From contig NZ_OY781114.1 of the NCBI RefSeq assembly GCF_963676485.1, positions 2,806,501 through 2,870,500 of the forward strand: a stretch of DNA of 64,000 nt. The letters are read 5' to 3'. Shown here piece by piece: positions 4,660 to 48,487 of the stretch (positions within the stretch are counted from its first letter, which is position 1; each line of letters starts with the position of its first letter). Origin of the DNA: an uncultured Cohaesibacter sp. (GTDB taxonomy: Bacteria > Pseudomonadota > Alphaproteobacteria > Rhizobiales > Cohaesibacteraceae). The notes beneath the pieces were generated by a model. That model made no database searches. It was not told the DNA's origin and saw only the letters and a program-made list of their open reading frames with translations. The translations under genes and the position numbers were made by a program.

Positions 4660-5427
4660 ATGGCTTGGCTTGCCCCCTCAGACCCTTTTGATGTCGACCA
4701 GATGGCACAACCGGTCGTCGGCATCGCATCGCGGCTGGTGCAGCACGATTCCGGTTGGCACCAGCATGGGCGCGGGCAGCTTTTGTTTGCCTTTGCCGGT
4801 TCGATCCGGATCATGCTGGCTGGTGCGACGTCCGTTCTGCCTCCGATCCGGGTGGCCTGGATTCCACCGGGAACGTCGCATCGGGTCACCATCCGCAGTG
4901 AGGTCGAGTACCGATCCATCTATCTCGACGAAGCATACCTCTCCGCGCATCTTTCCGGTTTGGCCATTGTAACCATGTCCTCCCTGCTGCGTGAGGTGTT
5001 CGAGCGGATCAGCTTGCTGCCCTTTGACACGGATTGGTCGCAGGGGGCTGCACGCAATTTGCTGGCGGTCTGTCTGGATGAACTCGCGACGGCACGGCAG
5101 GAACCCATGCTTCTGCCTGTTCCATCCGACCCGCGTTTGGCGCGGCTGGATATCGAGGAACTGCCTCCGGAACTGGAGACCCTTTCGCACCAAATCGGCG
5201 TCACCACGCGGACGATCTCTCGCATCTTTCGCCGGGAAACGGGCATGAATTATCAGGCCTGGCGTCAAAGCTGGCGATTGCTGCGCGCTGTAGATCTGCT
5301 TGCCTCAGGCCTCAGCGTAACAGCTGTGGCCTCGGACCTCGGGTTTGCCAGCGACAGCGCCTTCATCGCCTTCTTCCGGCAAATGACTGGCGAAACTCCG
5401 AAGCGTTACATCCATAAGGCGGGGTGA
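4660..5427 (+). CDS. AraC-family transcriptional regulator
   Basis: 255 residues with an N-terminal cupin-like sensing domain (HQHGRGQLLFAFAGSIRI, then WIPPGTSHRV) and a C-terminal double helix-turn-helix (LSHQIGVTTRTISRIFRRET and VASDLGFASDSAFIAFFRQ, closing with TGETPKRY). This arrangement is typical of regulators of neighbouring efflux pumps. It is divergently oriented to the MFS gene. The ligand cannot be inferred. Confidence 0.9.
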   Translation: MAWLAPSDPFDVDQMAQPVVGIASRLVQHDSGWHQHGRGQLLFAFAGSIRIMLAGATSVLPPIRVAWIPPGTSHRVTIRSEVEYRSIYLDEAYLSAHLSGLAIVTMSSLLREVFERISLLPFDTDWSQGAARNLLAVCLDELATARQEPMLLPVPSDPRLARLDIEELPPELETLSHQIGVTTRTISRIFRRETGMNYQAWRQSWRLLRAVDLLASGLSVTAVASDLGFASDSAFIAFFRQMTGETPKRYIHKAG

Positions 5428-36409: not shown

Positions 36410-37111
36410 TCAGGCGCTCTCTCGCATACCCTCTTCGTCTGGTTCGCGCAGCACATAGCCACGGCCCCATACGGTTTCGATATAATTTCGACCACCGGTT
36501 GCCGTTGCGAGCTTTTTGCGCAGTTTACAGATGAACACGTCGATAATTTTCAACTCTGGTTCATCCATGCCACCATAAAGATGGTTCAGGAACATCTCTT
36601 TGGTGAGGGTTGTTCCCTTGCGCAGGCTCAAAAGCTCAAGCATCTGGTATTCTTTGCCTGTCAGATGGACGCGCTGACCTTCCACTTCGACGGTCTTGGT
36701 GTCGAGGTTTACGGTCAACTCGCCAGTCGTGATAACAGACTGTGCGTGGCCCTTCGAGCGTCTTACGATCGCGTGAATGCGGGCTACCAGCTCATCCTTG
36801 TGGAATGGCTTGGTCATGTAGTCATCTGCACCGAAGCCTAGCCCACGAACCTTGTCCTCAATGCCGGCCAGACCGGAAAGGATAAGGATCGGAGTTTTCA
36901 CCTTGGACACACGCAGAGTACGAAGCACTTCGTACCCGCTCATATCCGGCAGGTTCAAGTCCAGTAGAATTATGTCGTAGTCATACAGCTTACCAAGGTC
37001 AATGCCTTCTTCACCGAGATCGGTTGTGTAGACATTGAAGCTTTCAGACTTGAGCATCAACTCGATGCTCTGTGCTGTGGCGCCGTCATCCTCAATTAGC
37101 AAAACGCGCAT
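36410..37111 (-). CDS. ctrA: Cell-cycle response regulator CtrA
   Basis: 233 residues from ATG 37111; the frame runs 13 codons further but [11 protein letters not shown] is the canonical start. Phospho-acceptor D51 ([12 protein letters not shown]) and an OmpR-type winged helix ([24 protein letters not shown]) match CtrA of alphaproteobacteria. It is the master regulator that binds TTAA-N7-TTAA boxes, including two found upstream of fliF here. Phosphate would reach it through ChpT. It is divergent from fliI. Confidence 0.95.
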
Positions 37112-37288
37112 GCCAATCCTCTTTGTTTGCCTATTCTGGGCTCGGAGCAATCTGCAGGGTCGCAGCCGACAAGAACCAAATTTTTAACCCAGATTCCGAG
37201 GCTAGTACATAATGGTTAACAAATACTGATTCCACTGCGCAAGCCTGTCGTTGGAACTTCACAAAGAAAAGTGATATCCCATTGAATC

Positions 37289-37307
37289 CTAGGAAAATTG
37301 TTCCCAG
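37289..37307. repeat. CTAGG-N9-CCTAG-type palindrome, copy 1 (one mismatch)
   Basis: CTAGG at 37289-37293, nine AT-rich bases, then CCCAG at 37303-37307 (one mismatch to CCTAG). It lies between divergent ctrA and fliI and matches the exact copies at 37383 and 48424. Confidence 0.6.
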
Positions 37308-37382
37308 TACCAGACGTAAAGTTTCACATTAAGGAAAATTATTAAGTGATACTGTTAATCTGGCTCAGTCGGTTTTGACCTA

Positions 37383-37401
37383 CTAGGAAGATTTTCCCTA
37401 G
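37383..37401. repeat. CTAGG-N9-CCTAG palindrome, copy 2 (exact)
   Basis: CTAGG (37383-37387), nine bases, CCTAG (37397-37401), 79 bases before the fliI start. A further half site CTAGG begins at 37410 with TAACC at the expected partner position. Spacing of about two helical turns between half-site centres suits a dimeric protein. The regulator is unknown. Confidence 0.75.
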
Positions 37402-37479
37402 CAAACCCACTAGGAATAATAATTAACCAATCGGGTAAACGAATCATTACCATGGAAAAGAATTATTAAAGGCTTGGCA

Positions 37480-38820
37480 ATGGTACAGGAACTGATCAGT
37501 AAACTGGAGGACATAAACCCGCGGCATGCATTTGGCCGGGTTGCGTCGATTCAGGGCCATCTGGTGGAAGTGGTGGGGCCTCTCTTCGAGATGAGCGTGG
37601 GCTCCATGCTGCATATACATGTGGACGGACGGGAGCCGATCAAATGCGAGGTGGTTGGCTTTTCCTCTGATCGAGCTCTTTGTCTCCCCTATTCGGAGTT
37701 GGACGGGATTCGACTCGGAAGTCGGGCCGAGCTGCATGGACCCGCAGTTGTTCGCCCCACGAAAGACTGGCTGGGGCGCATGATCAATGCGTTTGGCGAG
37801 CCGATCGATGGCAAGGGGCCTTTGGGGCGCGGGCATGATGCCGTATCCTTGCGTGGGAAGCCTCCAGCGGCGCACAAGCGCATGCGCGTGGGTGGGCCTA
37901 TGGATCTTGGGGTGCGGGCGCTTAATACCTTTGTGACGCTTTGTGAGGGCCAGCGTATGGGTATCTTTGCGGGCTCGGGTGTTGGCAAGTCGGTTCTGCT
38001 CTCCATGTTGGCGCGCAACGCCAGTTCCCAGGTCAATATCATCGGGCTCATCGGTGAACGTGGACGTGAGGTGCAGGAATTCGTCGAGGATGATCTGGGC
38101 GAAGAGGGGCTCAAGCGCTCGATCGTGGTGGTGGCTACATCCGACGAAATGGCCCTTATGCGCCGCCAGGCAGCCTATCTGACGCTGGCCCTTTCCGAAT
38201 TTTACCGAAAGCAGGGCAAGCAGGTTCTCTGCATGATGGATTCGGTAACACGCTTTGCACAGGCGCAGCGCGAAATCGGTCTGGCAGCCGGAGAACCGCC
38301 GACTTCCAAGGGATATACCCCCACAGTTTTCGCAGAATTGCCCAAATTGTTGGAAAGAGCGGGGCCTGGAGAAAAAAATGAGGGGGCCGTTACAGGTCTT
38401 TTTACTGTTTTGGTGGAAGGTGATAATCACAATGAGCCTGTAGCGGATGCTGTCCGTGGTATTCTGGATGGACATATCGTTATGGAAAGGGCCATTGCTG
38501 AGAGGGGAAGGTACCCGGCGATTAACATTTTGAAATCTGTTTCGCGTACACTCCCCAAGGCTGCCGATCCGGCCTTCTGGCCTGATGTGCTAAAGGCTCG
38601 GCAATTTATGGCGACCTATTCGGATATGGAAGAGTTGATCCGGTTGGGAGCCTATAAACAGGGAAGCGATCCAAATGTGGATTTGGCTATCGCTCTTCAT
38701 GAACCGCTGGAAACCTTCCTTACACAAAATAAGGGGGAGGCCACCAGCATCGAAGAGGGATACCAGGCGTTACAGTCCATTTTGGGAACGCAGACCGCAA
38801 CGGGTAATTCGGGGCTTTAA
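37480..38820 (+). CDS. fliI: Flagellar export ATPase FliI
   Basis: 446 residues, related to F1-ATPase beta. Walker A is [10 protein letters not shown], and the flanking [13 protein letters not shown] and [22 protein letters not shown] are specific to the FliI/type III ATPases. It energises flagellar protein export with FliH and FliJ. The ATG at 37480 follows AAAGG. Its promoter lies in the region shared with ctrA. Confidence 0.95.
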
Positions 38821-42854: not shown

Positions 42855-44228
42855 TTATCCCGCTTGTCTGGCTTCACCCGGCTGAGGGATATCGGCCCCG
42901 TCGTCGGAATATTGCTTGAGCTTGTTGCGCAACGTGCGGATGGAGATGCCCAGAATGTTGGCGGCATGGGTGCGGTTGCCAAGGCAATGGTCCAGTGTGT
43001 CCAGGATCAGATCCTGTTCGACTTCCGCGACGGTGCGGCCAACGAGGGTGCGGGTTACGCCTTCTGCTGCGATAACGGCTTGTGCCGCAGGTCCGCTGGC
43101 CATCCCGATGATGGTGTCATCCATACGGCTGCCATCGGGCATGCGCAGGGCTTCTGCACCGATTTCCACGCCTGTTGCCAGAAGCACGGCGCGATGGATG
43201 GTGTTTTCCAGCTCACGCACGTTGCCCGGCCAGTTGTTGGCGTGCAGATGGCGATGACATTCTGCGCTCATCTTGCGCTGGGGCAGTCCGTTGGCCTGAG
43301 CGTATTTGTCGGCAAAATGGGCTGCCAGCAAATCAATGTCCTGCGGACGCTCGCGGAGCGGCGGGATCTGCAGATTGATGACATTGAGGCGGAACAGAAG
43401 GTCTTCGCGGAAGGTGCCTGCGCGGACTTCGTCGGCCAAATTGCGGTTTGAGGTGGCCAGAATGCGGATGTCGACCGGCACAGGCTTGGTGCCGCCCACC
43501 CGATCAATAACCCGTTCCTGAATGGCGCGCAGCAATTTTGCCTGCAGGCGGATATCCATTTCGGAAATCTCGTCCAGCAGCAGGGTGCCGCCGTTTGCTT
43601 CTTCGAATTTGCCGATGCGGCGGGCAACTGCGCCGGTGAAGGCGCCCTTTTCATGACCGAACAGTTCGGATTCCAGCAGATTGTCCGGAATGGCAGCGCA
43701 GTTGACCGAGACGAAGGGTTTCGTCGCCCGGCGGGAATGCTGGTGCAGGTGCCGCGCAAGGACTTCCTTGCCGGTGCCGCTTTCGCCGGTGATGAGAACG
43801 GATGCATCACTGGGGGCAATCTGGTTGGCCAGCTGCACAACATTGTTCATGGCCGGATCACGGTGAACCAGATCGCCCTGATCCTTGGAAACCGCTTCCA
43901 GAACCGCTGCAATGATTTCCGGATCTGGTGGAAGAGGAATATATTCCTTTGCGCCCGCACGAATGGCATTGACCGCTGCGCGGGCATCATTTTCCACGCC
44001 GCAGGCGATCACCGGAATGGTGATATGCTCTTCTTCAAGAGACTTGATCAGGGTGGCAATGTCGAGTCTGACGTCGATCATCATCAAATCCGCGCCACGC
44101 CCAGCACGCAGGTGGCTTATAGCCATTTGCGCGGTCTCGGCGTGGGAAACCTGAGCTCCACGGTCCAGAGCAATTTTAGTTGCTTGGGAAAGCTGACCAT
44201 TCAGGGTACCGGTAATAAGCAGGCGCAT
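42855..44228 (-). CDS. flbD: Sigma-54-dependent flagellar activator FlbD
   Basis: 457 residues. The N-terminal receiver is degenerate: D52 remains (MMIDVRLD), but the N-terminal acidic pair and the usual Lys-Pro pair (AKEYIPLPP) are missing. The AAA+ domain has GESGTGKEV, the sigma-54 contact loop GAFTGA and GGTLLLDEISEM. The C-terminus is a Fis-type helix-turn-helix (NRTHAANILGISIRTLRNKL). In Caulobacter FlbD sits in the same operon and activates late flagellar genes while repressing fliF. Confidence 0.92.
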   Translation of the reverse strand: MRLLITGTLNGQLSQATKIALDRGAQVSHAETAQMAISHLRAGRGADLMMIDVRLDIATLIKSLEEEHITIPVIACGVENDARAAVNAIRAGAKEYIPLPPDPEIIAAVLEAVSKDQGDLVHRDPAMNNVVQLANQIAPSDASVLITGESGTGKEVLARHLHQHSRRATKPFVSVNCAAIPDNLLESELFGHEKGAFTGAVARRIGKFEEANGGTLLLDEISEMDIRLQAKLLRAIQERVIDRVGGTKPVPVDIRILATSNRNLADEVRAGTFREDLLFRLNVINLQIPPLRERPQDIDLLAAHFADKYAQANGLPQRKMSAECHRHLHANNWPGNVRELENTIHRAVLLATGVEIGAEALRMPDGSRMDDTIIGMASGPAAQAVIAAEGVTRTLVGRTVAEVEQDLILDTLDHCLGNRTHAANILGISIRTLRNKLKQYSDDGADIPQPGEARQAG

Positions 44229-45678: not shown

Positions 45679-46740
45679 TTAGTAGATAAGCTCGTCCTCG
45701 CCATTGCCTTTGGCGATCATGATTTCGCCGCGCGCAGCAAGATCTTTGGCCATATTGACCATTGCACCCTGTGCCTCGTCGACATCGCGCAGGCGAACCG
45801 GCCCCATGCCTTCCATGTCTTCCTGCAGCATCGCTCCGGCGCGCTGGGACATATTGTCCATGAACAGGGTCCTGATGGTTTCGTTGGCACCCTTGAGGGC
45901 GAGGGCAAGAATATCCTTTTCGATATTCTGCAGCAGCGACTGAACGCCGGTGGAATCCAGCTTGCTGAGATCTTCGAAGGTGAACATCAGCTGCTTGATC
46001 TTCTCGGCGGACTCGCGGTTTTCCTCTTCCAGAGCGGCCAGCAGGCGGGCTTCTGTCTGGCGGTCGAAATTGTTGAAGATATCGGCCATCACCTCGTGCG
46101 CATCGCGGCGCTGGGTGGTCGACAAGTTCGACATGAATTCCACGCGCAGGGTCTGCTCGACTTTTTCCAGCACTTCCTTCTGCACCGCTTCCATGGACAG
46201 CATGCGGTTGATGACCTCCAGACCGAAATCTTCCGGCATGATGGAGAGCACTTTTGCGGCATGGTCTGACTTGATCTTGGAGAGCACCACAGCAACGGTT
46301 TGTGGGTATTCGTTCTTGAGATAGTTGGCGAGCACATTCTCCTGAACGTTGGAAAGCTTTTCCCACATGTTGCGACCGGCAGGGCCGCGGATTTCTTCCA
46401 TGATAGCACTCACGCGTTCTTCCGGAAGGAAAGAGGCCAGCAGACGTTCGGTTGAGTCAAAGTTGCCCGTAACCGCCCCTTTGGAAGACAGGCGGGAAAC
46501 GAATTCGATGATGAGATTGTCCAACATGTTGGGGGTGATGCCACCCAGCTTCGACATGGAAATGGAAACCTGCTTGATTTCAATATCATCAAGGCGACGC
46601 CAGATTGGGCCGCCATGCTCGTCCCCAAGCGCAAGCAGAATGATGGATGCCTTTTCGGCGCCGTTCAATTCGCGTTCCTCGTGCTCTGATGACACGGACG
46701 CGTTTGCGTTTGCCATATTTGTTAGGGCTGTTGCCGGCAT
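45679..46740 (-). CDS. fliG: Flagellar motor switch protein FliG
   Basis: 353 residues with the three FliG domains; the middle EHPQ-like segment is [14 protein letters not shown] and the C-terminal torque helix region is [20 protein letters not shown]. It connects the MS ring to the C-ring and interacts with MotA. 8 bases after fliF. Confidence 0.95.
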
Positions 46741-46748
46741 TGCTTACC

Positions 46749-48386
46749 TCACGCTGCGTCTTGCAGCCAAAGACGGATGATCTTGGCAGCTTCTTCTGGG
46801 TTTTCTTTAACGAGGTCACCAACTTTGACCAGTGTGTCGGACTGCAGTGCGCCCTGGAGCTGAGCCATCTCGATGGCTTGCATGGTCGGATGCTTCGGAT
46901 CATCCTCGCGCTGTGGAGCCGGGATCAAGTCCCCTGTTTCGCTTCGGACCATCGCAACCCCATCCGGGCCGATGATGACATCCAGATCGTCTTTCTGGTC
47001 ATCCGGTTTTTCGAACATGCGTTTCATCAGCGGGCGGACGACCATGAGCAGTACGAGCAGAGTCATAATGAACATGACGCCGAGTTCCGTAAAGCGCATG
47101 TAATCATCTTTGGTAAACGCAAAGAGTTCATCGCCTGCTTCGTCGAAGATGGTTTGCGGTCCTTCGGCAAATTGCAGATTGATCACCTCGACCCGGTCGC
47201 CGCGTGTCTGGTCATAGCCAACAGCAGAGCGAACGAGCGTTGCGATCTGCTCCAGCTGCTCGGGGCTTCTGGGTGAATAGACCAGTTCACCATTCGCATT
47301 TTTTTCATAGGTGCCATCAACCAGCACTGCGACCGACAGGCGCTCAATTCGACCGCCCTGCACAATTTCGGTGGTGGTCTTGCGAGAGATCTCGTAGTTG
47401 ATCAGCTCTTCGGTCGTCTGTGAATTCTCTTGCGATCCGGCAGGGTTCTGGTCGGCATTCGCATCTGGCAATTCATTGCCGACCGTCACACCACCAACTT
47501 CACGATCCTGGCTGTTGGCATTCTCTGTGCGGGTCTGCGTGGAGCGAACGACCTGTCCGTCCGGGTCATACATATCAGAGGTTTCGGTCACCTTGTTGAA
47601 GTTCATCTCTGCAGAGACTTCAATGCGCGACCGGCCCTGACCAACCACGGAAGAAACGATGTCGTCCACCTGATCGCGCAGACGGCTTTCCATCTGCACC
47701 TGACGCTCTTCTATACGCGCGGTAAGGTATCCATCATCATTGCCGCGACCGGAAGCCAGAAGACGCCCGCGCTCGTCAACAATGGTGACATTCTCCGGAT
47801 TGAGGCCTTCCACGGCGGAACCGACCAGATGCTGGATGGCCTGGATTTGTACCGTGCTCAGATTGCCCTGCAGTTTGACGGCGATGGATGCGGTGGGCTC
47901 TTTCTGGTCGCGCTTGAAAAGCTGGTCTTTGGGAAGAACCAGATGAACGCGCGCCTGACGGACATTGCGGATGGTGCGGATGGAGCGGGAAAGCTCTCCC
48001 TCAAGGGCCCGCAAATGGTTGACATTCTGTACGAAGCTCGTGGTGCCAAGGGTTTCGCTTTTGTCAAAGATTTCGTAGCCGACATTGCCGCCGGTTGGCA
48101 AGCCGCTCTCGGCCAATTGCATGCGCAGCTTCAGGATGTCTTCCTTTGGTGCAAGGATGACCGCGCCTTCATCGCGAATTTCATGCGTGATATTTTGTGC
48201 CTCGAGCAGTTTGGTGATCTGGATGGAGTCTTCAAAGGACAGGTCTGTATAGAGAGGGGAGAGTGTAGGTTCGCTTACCCGCATCATGATGAATGCGAAA
48301 AATCCGATCAAGACAGCAGTCACCACTCCCATCGCGGCCAGACGGGCAGGGCCAAGCGTTTTGAAAAATTCGAGTAGACCGTTCAC
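46749..48386 (-). CDS. fliF: Flagellar MS-ring protein FliF
   Basis: 545 residues, two membrane helices (about 18-37 and 430-450) flanking the periplasmic ring-building domains (LYTDLSFEDSIQITKLLEAQ, ALEGELSRSIRTI, ASIAVKLQ). The C-terminus binds FliG. It starts with GTG at 48386, with AAGG about 8 bases ahead. First gene of the fliF-fliG-fliH-fliN-flbD-flhA operon, with two CtrA boxes upstream. Confidence 0.95.
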   Translation of the reverse strand: MNGLLEFFKTLGPARLAAMGVVTAVLIGFFAFIMMRVSEPTLSPLYTDLSFEDSIQITKLLEAQNITHEIRDEGAVILAPKEDILKLRMQLAESGLPTGGNVGYEIFDKSETLGTTSFVQNVNHLRALEGELSRSIRTIRNVRQARVHLVLPKDQLFKRDQKEPTASIAVKLQGNLSTVQIQAIQHLVGSAVEGLNPENVTIVDERGRLLASGRGNDDGYLTARIEERQVQMESRLRDQVDDIVSSVVGQGRSRIEVSAEMNFNKVTETSDMYDPDGQVVRSTQTRTENANSQDREVGGVTVGNELPDANADQNPAGSQENSQTTEELINYEISRKTTTEIVQGGRIERLSVAVLVDGTYEKNANGELVYSPRSPEQLEQIATLVRSAVGYDQTRGDRVEVINLQFAEGPQTIFDEAGDELFAFTKDDYMRFTELGVMFIMTLLVLLMVVRPLMKRMFEKPDDQKDDLDVIIGPDGVAMVRSETGDLIPAPQREDDPKHPTMQAIEMAQLQGALQSDTLVKVGDLVKENPEEAAKIIRLWLQDAA

Positions 48387-48423: not shown

Positions 48424-48442
48424 CTAGGCAATATTTTCCTAG
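48424..48442. repeat. CTAGG-N9-CCTAG palindrome, copy 3 (exact, fliF leader)
   Basis: CTAGG (48424-48428), nine AT-rich bases, CCTAG (48438-48442), 38 bases upstream of the fliF start and downstream of the CtrA boxes. A further CCTAG half site lies at 48524-48528 with TTAAC at the partner position. Same element as at 37383. Confidence 0.75.
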
Positions 48443-48449
48443 GAGATGG

Positions 48450-48464
48450 TTAACAACATGTTAA
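48450..48464. promoter_or_regulatory. CtrA box 1 upstream of fliF
   Basis: TTAA-CAACATG-TTAA fits the CtrA consensus TTAA-N7-TTAA exactly, 64 to 78 bases before the fliF start. Confidence 0.8.
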
Positions 48465-48472
48465 GGGTTTGG

Positions 48473-48487
48473 TTAACGATTGGTTAA
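48473..48487. promoter_or_regulatory. CtrA box 2 upstream of fliF
   Basis: TTAA-CGATTGG-TTAA, extended by C on the right to the full TTAAC-N6-TTAAC form. Two exact boxes 23 bases apart (about two helix turns) strongly suggest direct CtrA control of fliF. Confidence 0.85.

Follow-up and report, generated by a model that had tools for sequence, protein, structure and literature searches.

Palindromic dyads at flagellar promoters of Cohaesibacter and other Alphaproteobacteria as candidate operators of FlbD

Palindromes of the form CTAGG-N9-CCTAG stand between ctrA and fliI and upstream of fliF in a genome of Cohaesibacter, a marine genus of the order Hyphomicrobiales, which raises the question of what regulator might read them. 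The window, i.e. the whole stretch of 64,000 nucleotides that was analysed, contains in this region a cluster of chemotaxis and flagellar genes (cheB, cheR, ctrA, fliI, fliJ, flhA, flbD, fliN, fliG, fliF, flgD, fliK). A sequence-only reading of the window had reported an exact palindrome at 37383-37401, a one-mismatch copy at 37289-37307 and a second exact copy in the fliF leader; all three are present, and their nine-base spacers are A+T-rich, as stated there. The half site that it added at 37410 does exist as a CTAGG but is not conserved, being found in 1/15 Cohaesibacter members in the alignment. The features used below are as follows.

36410..37113, minus strand: ctrA, response regulator with winged helix, ATG at 37113; the name is presumed from the domain make-up and the MRVLLIEDD start
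37210..37232, minus strand: conserved block on the ctrA side, TTAACCATTA with GANTC (GAATC), likely the ctrA promoter; kept in a sister genus (G018)
37289..37307, no strand: dyad A, CTAGGAAAATTGTTCCCAG, ctrA-fliI intergenic, putative FlbD-type operator
37383..37401, no strand: dyad B, CTAGGAAGATTTTCCCTAG, ctrA-fliI intergenic, at 94 bp from dyad A, putative FlbD-type operator
37410..37414, plus strand: CTAGG half site, probably chance
37423..37450, plus strand: conserved block on the fliI side, TTAACCA then GTAAACGAATCATTAC with GANTC; largely kept in G018
37474..38820, plus strand: fliI, flagellar export ATPase
42855..44228, minus strand: flbD, encoding a sigma-54 activator (GAFTGA loop, Fis-type HTH), the candidate binder for each dyad
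46749..48386, minus strand: fliF, MS ring, heading the run fliF-fliG-(unnamed ORF)-fliN-flbD-flhA
48424..48442, no strand: dyad of the fliF leader, reading CTAGGAAAATATTGCCTAG in the fliF direction, putative FlbD-type operator
48450..48464, minus strand: putative CtrA-type box TTAA-N7-TTAA just upstream of the fliF-leader dyad, its far edge 22 nt off
48473..48487, minus strand: second CtrA-type box TTAA-N7-TTAA of the fliF leader, mostly conserved in the genus alignment

The exact palindrome occurs twice in the whole 5.08-Mb genome, both times inside the window, as compared with 18 copies of a control consisting of the same pattern read backwards. CTAGG pairs are thus rare in this genome, and no multitude of copies without a link to motility was found. 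With one mismatch allowed, the genome holds 16 places, i.e. the three window dyads and 13 others, of which one has at least six A/T in its nine-base spacer by hand count. The three copies in the window compare with 0.61 expected, and three were also reached in 2/100 dinucleotide shuffles, which leaves chance palindromes in A+T-rich intergenic DNA some room on numbers. Conservation argues strongly against them: the fliF dyad is identical in 18/18 Cohaesibacter (the window and 17 others), directly behind a TTAA-N7-TTAA box, the ctrA/fliI dyads are kept in 15/15, so that the motif is not lost in close relatives, and the core of the dyad is found class-wide. A chance origin is accordingly of negligible probability.

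A wider core upstream of fliF, flgB and flgF

The ten fixed bases put forward as the motif hold as the spelling of the genus. A scan for CTAGG-N9-CCTAG gave a match in 75/397 genomes, and the matches listed outside the genus have mostly G+C-rich or mixed cores; for this reason the ten bases were rejected as the motif and a wider core, GGNAA-N3-TTNCC, was read from fliF leaders, and this broader dyad holds across the class. Exact copies with an A+T-rich core in three genomes (G018, G021 and G048) also lie in fliF leaders. A wide one-mismatch search of the window's own genome was discarded because the reversed control gave more places (216) than the pattern itself (203) and because the exact matches listed did not include the fliF site.

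Hyphomicrobiales leaders were taken as the 300 bp upstream of fliF, in genomes chosen by their FliF match (threshold E 1e-120) and in named loci. The set comprises 88 leaders, namely 87 and the leader of the second fliF (fliF-2) of the window's genome, with one genome entering twice (L100, L183). A locus of G130 that had been picked for its palindrome (L204) has no fliF and was dropped; its exact A+T-cored CTAGG-N9-CCTAG (4675-4693) lies between a gene of phytoene-desaturase (carotenoid) type and one for an ABC transporter, a non-flagellar setting. The core is exact in 80/87 Hyphomicrobiales leaders and one mismatch off in 7/87, against about 0.7 exact in shuffles, which here and for the fliF leaders of other Alphaproteobacteria and the fliF-2, flgF, flgB and ctrA/fliI leaders kept base composition only. 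Among 40 fliF leaders from other Alphaproteobacteria, 28 have an exact core (0.2 expected), 7 have one mismatch and 5 are worse. The proposal of an operator for a dimeric regulator common to flagellar promoters is therefore well supported class-wide. The five leaders without a dyad in 300 bp belong to loci that have flbD; in two of them an exact core lies further out, at 315 and 366 nt, and in the other three none was found within 900 bp. Over the loci as a whole, exact cores number 133 in 36.2 kb of leaders (3.67 per kb) vs 39 in the remaining 1,008 kb (0.039 per kb), a count obtained with the window, L202, L203 and every L0xx row excluded. Within the fliG coding sequence of the window, an exact core dyad, GTTGGAAAGCTTTTCCCAC (46348-46366), is probably a chance occurrence.

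The dyad is frequently accompanied by a second element. A CtrA-type box (TTAA-N7-TTWR) was found within 45 bp upstream of the dyad in 75/87 Hyphomicrobiales fliF leaders, at exactly 22 nt in 59 of them. In other orders, such a box accompanies 6/35 fliF leaders that have the dyad with at most one mismatch and is missing within 45 bp in 29/35, so the dyad occurs more broadly than its pairing with CtrA. The sites used in the covariation analysis were selected with at most one core mismatch, and the invariance of core positions is thus partly by construction. No covariation of half sites beyond column make-up was detected among these sites, and since there is no such signal, half-site co-change is not claimed as proof of a dyad; symmetric changes of the half sites of dyad A in L056 and L044 are single cases and remain anecdotal.

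Leaders of flgF and flgB were examined because a strict form of the dyad had been seen there in one genome each. Upstream of flgF, the dyad is present with at most one mismatch in 29/30 leaders, 14 of them exact (shuffles gave 0.1 exact and 3.8 with one mismatch), and 23/30 have a sigma-54 motif (shuffles 0.2). From dyad end to -24/-12 motif end, the spacing falls at 94-102 bp in 17/23, around 97 bp, with an overall range of 65-112; in leaders with several dyads the one nearest 97 bp was picked by hand for this list. The layout in the window's own genome is ATAGGCAACTTTTTCCCAC followed by TGGCACGCATTATGC. Upstream of flgB, the dyad is present in 27/30 leaders (17 exact), with a CtrA-type box at 21-22 nt in 21/30, and the own-genome layout is TTAA-N7-TTAA, 22 nt, ATAGGCAAAATTTGCCGCA. 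No sigma-54 motif was found in any of the 30 flgB leaders, nor at ctrA/fliI or fliF. Two near-fixed layouts can thus be described. At fliF and flgB the dyad follows a CtrA-type box at 21-22 nt, and at flgF it is separated from a sigma-54 promoter by about 97 bp.

The strict pattern SYNGGHAAWWHTTDCCYRS was scanned in 24 genomes, strand pairs being merged. It gave 31 places, against 2 for the reversed pattern. Leaders of fliF account for 20 of them and further flagellar loci for 7 (three at flhA, one each at fliL/flgF, flgB/fliO and ctrA/fliI, and one about 1.2 kb upstream of flagellin); the remaining 4 are elsewhere (one at a Crp-type gene, one at a LysR-type gene, one next to a GGDEF gene and one between ccrM and ypfJ). 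In 3/24 genomes there was no match. Because the pattern was drawn from fliF leaders including those of these genomes, the 20 fliF matches are partly by construction and the other 11 are independent. The site near ccrM, a DNA methyltransferase gene, is in G054 (L291:4984-5002), and that beside the GGDEF (diguanylate cyclase) gene, in G123, lies 109 nt upstream of it (L294:5000-5018). The site upstream of flagellin, in G006 (L298:8840-8858), is an exact CTAGG-N9-CCTAG with a DDE transposase-type ORF nearby. Another exact copy, accompanied by a weaker dyad (14934), stands upstream of flgD in G012 (L299:14962-14980) and was listed for G012 only among the genus members searched.

A composite of CtrA-type box and exact palindrome was also scanned in one genome per species over 84,980 species, a search that may leave out records very near the window. 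It returned 23 loci, i.e. 12 fliF leaders (5 Cohaesibacter, 3 Maritalea, 1 Pseudovibrio, MnTg02, PMG_193 and a Tepidamorphaceae), 6 flgB leaders, all of Pseudovibrio, one Cohaesibacter locus ending before the gene, and 4 others. The flgB loci are the independent part of this result, since the pattern was drawn from fliF. No fliF match was found at the 4 others (Thermoproteales, Colwellia, Coprobacillus, Sutcliffiella), which appear to be chance occurrences. GGNAA-N3-TTNCC can serve as a searchable letter code for a flagellar checkpoint switch across Alphaproteobacteria.

FlbD as the candidate binder of the dyads

The sequence-only reading held that the dyads belong to a regulator for which no named factor was at hand. 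This is not supported, because the distribution of the dyads, their placement at sigma-54 promoters and their link to flbD are as expected of FlbD, which is encoded in the fliF operon of the window. FlbD is the sigma-54 activator that carries a Fis-type HTH and in addition works at early genes driven by CtrA. On sequence grounds we consider it likely that the dyads are FlbD operators, with FlbD as the best candidate binder. The FlbD of the window passes the NCBIfam FlbD equivalog model NF050807 (821.8 bits, cut-off 750) and stays under the cut-offs of the models for NtrC (365 of 558.6) and NtrX (278.2 of 600). It has an AAA+ domain with GAFTGA and a Fis-type HTH, and the solved structures that match the HTH part include Fis. 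The recognition-helix stretch ILGISIRT-x-RNKL is invariant, save for one Leu/Met position, in 115/115 copies in which the HTH is covered.

Dyads and flbD also occur together. A flbD match (E up to 1e-60) is present in 120/127 loci of the dyad class, and the 7 loci without one end 0.7-3.4 kb past the fliF start. A distant second class of fliF provides the control, which includes the second flagellar clusters of the window's genome and of G007. In these fliF-2 leaders the exact core is found in 0/21 and a one-mismatch form in 1/21 (1.3 expected), and flbD in 0/21, judged within loci of 3.8-9 kb. The rule that the dyad is absent where a nearby flbD is absent thus holds for exact cores over the 21 fliF-2 leaders. 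The second flagellar set of the window's genome (G000:C1:1281412-1307892; L202, L300, L301) comprises FliI-2, FliF-2 and FlgB-2, approximately 31-48% identical to the queries; its 9-kb FliF-2 locus is without flbD and the fliF leader there without a dyad.

These features resemble the ftr sites of Caulobacter crescentus, where flbD is part of the fliF operon, as it is here. The dyads, like ftr4 at fliF and the ftr sites at middle and late promoters, are found at fliF, whose gene run also contains flbD, and at the sigma-54 promoters of flgF, at enhancer distance. As far as the available passages go, Caulobacter FlbD was reported to repress fliF through ftr4 (PMC3930126), to activate middle genes through ftr sites (PMC3930126, PMC3096577) and to become active through FliX (PMC3096577, PMC7064773), while CtrA drives the early flagellar genes (PMC3930126, PMC3096577), as we propose for Cohaesibacter. 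The comparison concerns placement, and Cohaesibacter is set apart by its CTAGG..CCTAG flanks and by the two extra dyads at ctrA/fliI. A literature search that reached few subscription papers found no printed FlbD motif and no report of FlbD at ctrA/fliI; a FlbD binding-site study is cited by PMC12421884, and PMC7591256 yielded no passage on FlbD. CtrA boxes (TTAA-N7-TTAA; PMC4287350, in part) stand beside the dyads at fliF and flgB yet form a separate element. The SciP motif GCGNC-N5-GNCGC, described in the same excerpts, is likewise a palindrome accompanying CtrA boxes, but its letters and spacing are unrelated.

The closest competitor is NtrX, another NtrC-family regulator. In the passages available, its site in Brucella and Sinorhizobium is CAAN2-5TTG, with footprints at visN and ntrY and binding at ctrA, in Sinorhizobium at the ctrA promoter (PMC9223101), and ntrX, described as a homologue of flbD, is needed for motility in Phaeobacter (PMC12363192). 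The motif is contained, as CAA-N3-TTG, in the commonest spelling of the dyad, GGCAA-N3-TTGCC, but it fits neither GGTAA nor GGAAA, nor any of the three window dyads, and among 96 distinct sites 29 read GGT and 21 GGA at the third core position. The conserved part of the dyad moreover includes the GG/CC flanks and a fixed N3, whereas the NtrX sites have variable spacing, and the same excerpts of PMC9223101 report for them no GG/CC flanks, tie to flbD or sigma-54 flagellar promoters. Given also that the dyads accompany flbD (120/127 loci), that exact cores are missing from the fliF-2 leaders and that at flgF the spacing of the dyads to the sigma-54 promoter is nearly constant, binding by NtrX is improbable.

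A further dimeric regulator without a name, as in the earlier reading, would have to be class-wide, to accompany flbD and to act at both CtrA-type and sigma-54 flagellar promoters, and FlbD would then lack a binding site, which makes this reading about as improbable in our opinion. Some observations count against FlbD itself, i.e. the 5/40 class-level leaders without a dyad in 300 bp in spite of flbD in the locus, the 4/31 strict sites and the G130 copy that are not at flagellar genes, the missing half-site covariation, the single core base by which dyads A and B each deviate, and the lack of a sigma-54 motif at ctrA/fliI, fliF and flgB.

From the conservation of the dyads, their distribution, their spacing to CtrA-type and sigma-54 motifs and their linkage to flbD, we infer the following scheme with FlbD as the regulator. 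A FlbD dimer would bind GGNAA-N3-TTNCC, spelled CTAGG-N9-CCTAG in Cohaesibacter, through its Fis-type HTH. CtrA would bind its boxes and turn on the fliF operon, flbD included, and once the flagellar base is complete FlbD would become active (in Caulobacter through FliX) and occupy the dyads. The fliF and flgB dyads directly follow a CtrA-type box and cover what is presumably the core promoter; FlbD bound there should shut off these genes activated by CtrA, its own operon among them. Sigma-54 genes such as flgF would be activated by FlbD, with the dyad serving as an enhancer some 97 bp away from the promoter.

The dyad pair between ctrA and fliI in Cohaesibacter

The two dyads between ctrA and fliI are the new element of this locus. 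Both occur in 15/15 Cohaesibacter with an available ctrA/fliI region, each with no more than one core mismatch and at a spacing of 94 or 95 bp, and such a pair was found in 0/27 other genomes examined. The exact CTAGG-N9-CCTAG is seen at dyad A in 3/15 and at dyad B in 9/15 members. In the window, the centre of dyad A lies 185 bp upstream of the ctrA ATG and the end of dyad B 72 bp before the fliI start used (37474), and both gene sides carry conserved CtrA-type and GANTC motifs. Divergent ctrA and fliI adjoin each other in 30/30 FlbD genomes examined. The same arrangement is seen in the sister genus G018, which has neither dyad A nor dyad B. A core dyad with at most one mismatch is present in this intergenic region in 8/30 of the FlbD genomes (shuffles about 3.9), i.e. 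3/3 Cohaesibacter and 5/27 others, three of the latter exact. Thus, a conserved ctrA/fliI order appears to have acquired a FlbD-type pair in Cohaesibacter. These counts use the eight-base core because a looser criterion, GG-N9-CC with at least six A/T, is not specific and is passed by 12/27 fliI leaders outside the genus.

These data suggest a genus-specific control of fliI, and perhaps of ctrA, by FlbD. Nine helical turns separate the two dyads. FlbD bound there, perhaps in a larger oligomer with the DNA looped, might adjust the expression of fliI and possibly that of ctrA. It could be objected that the pair is a genus-specific look-alike element read by another factor. One core base is indeed off in most members, at dyad A in 13/15 and at dyad B in 10/15, the two window dyads each being one position off GGNAA-N3-TTNCC, and the region has neither a CtrA-type box at 22 nt nor a sigma-54 motif. 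Two members (G006 and G011) nevertheless have exact cores at both places, and the spelling at ctrA/fliI is that of the fliF dyad within the same genomes, so that we regard a look-alike as rather unlikely. Cohaesibacter may be a genus where flagellar assembly feeds back on ctrA. FlbD would in that case be wired onto ctrA and the state of flagellar assembly would act on ctrA transcription, in a CtrA-FlbD-CtrA loop that the sister genus lacks; we put this forward tentatively, as a possibility that we doubt more than we favor.

Two minor observations concern fliI. The fliI match has one in-frame stop in each of L390, L406 and L408 (G060, G052 and G134, respectively). Just upstream of fliI in the window, GTAAACGAATCATTAC (37435-37450) is strongly conserved and is perhaps a methylation-dependent promoter element.
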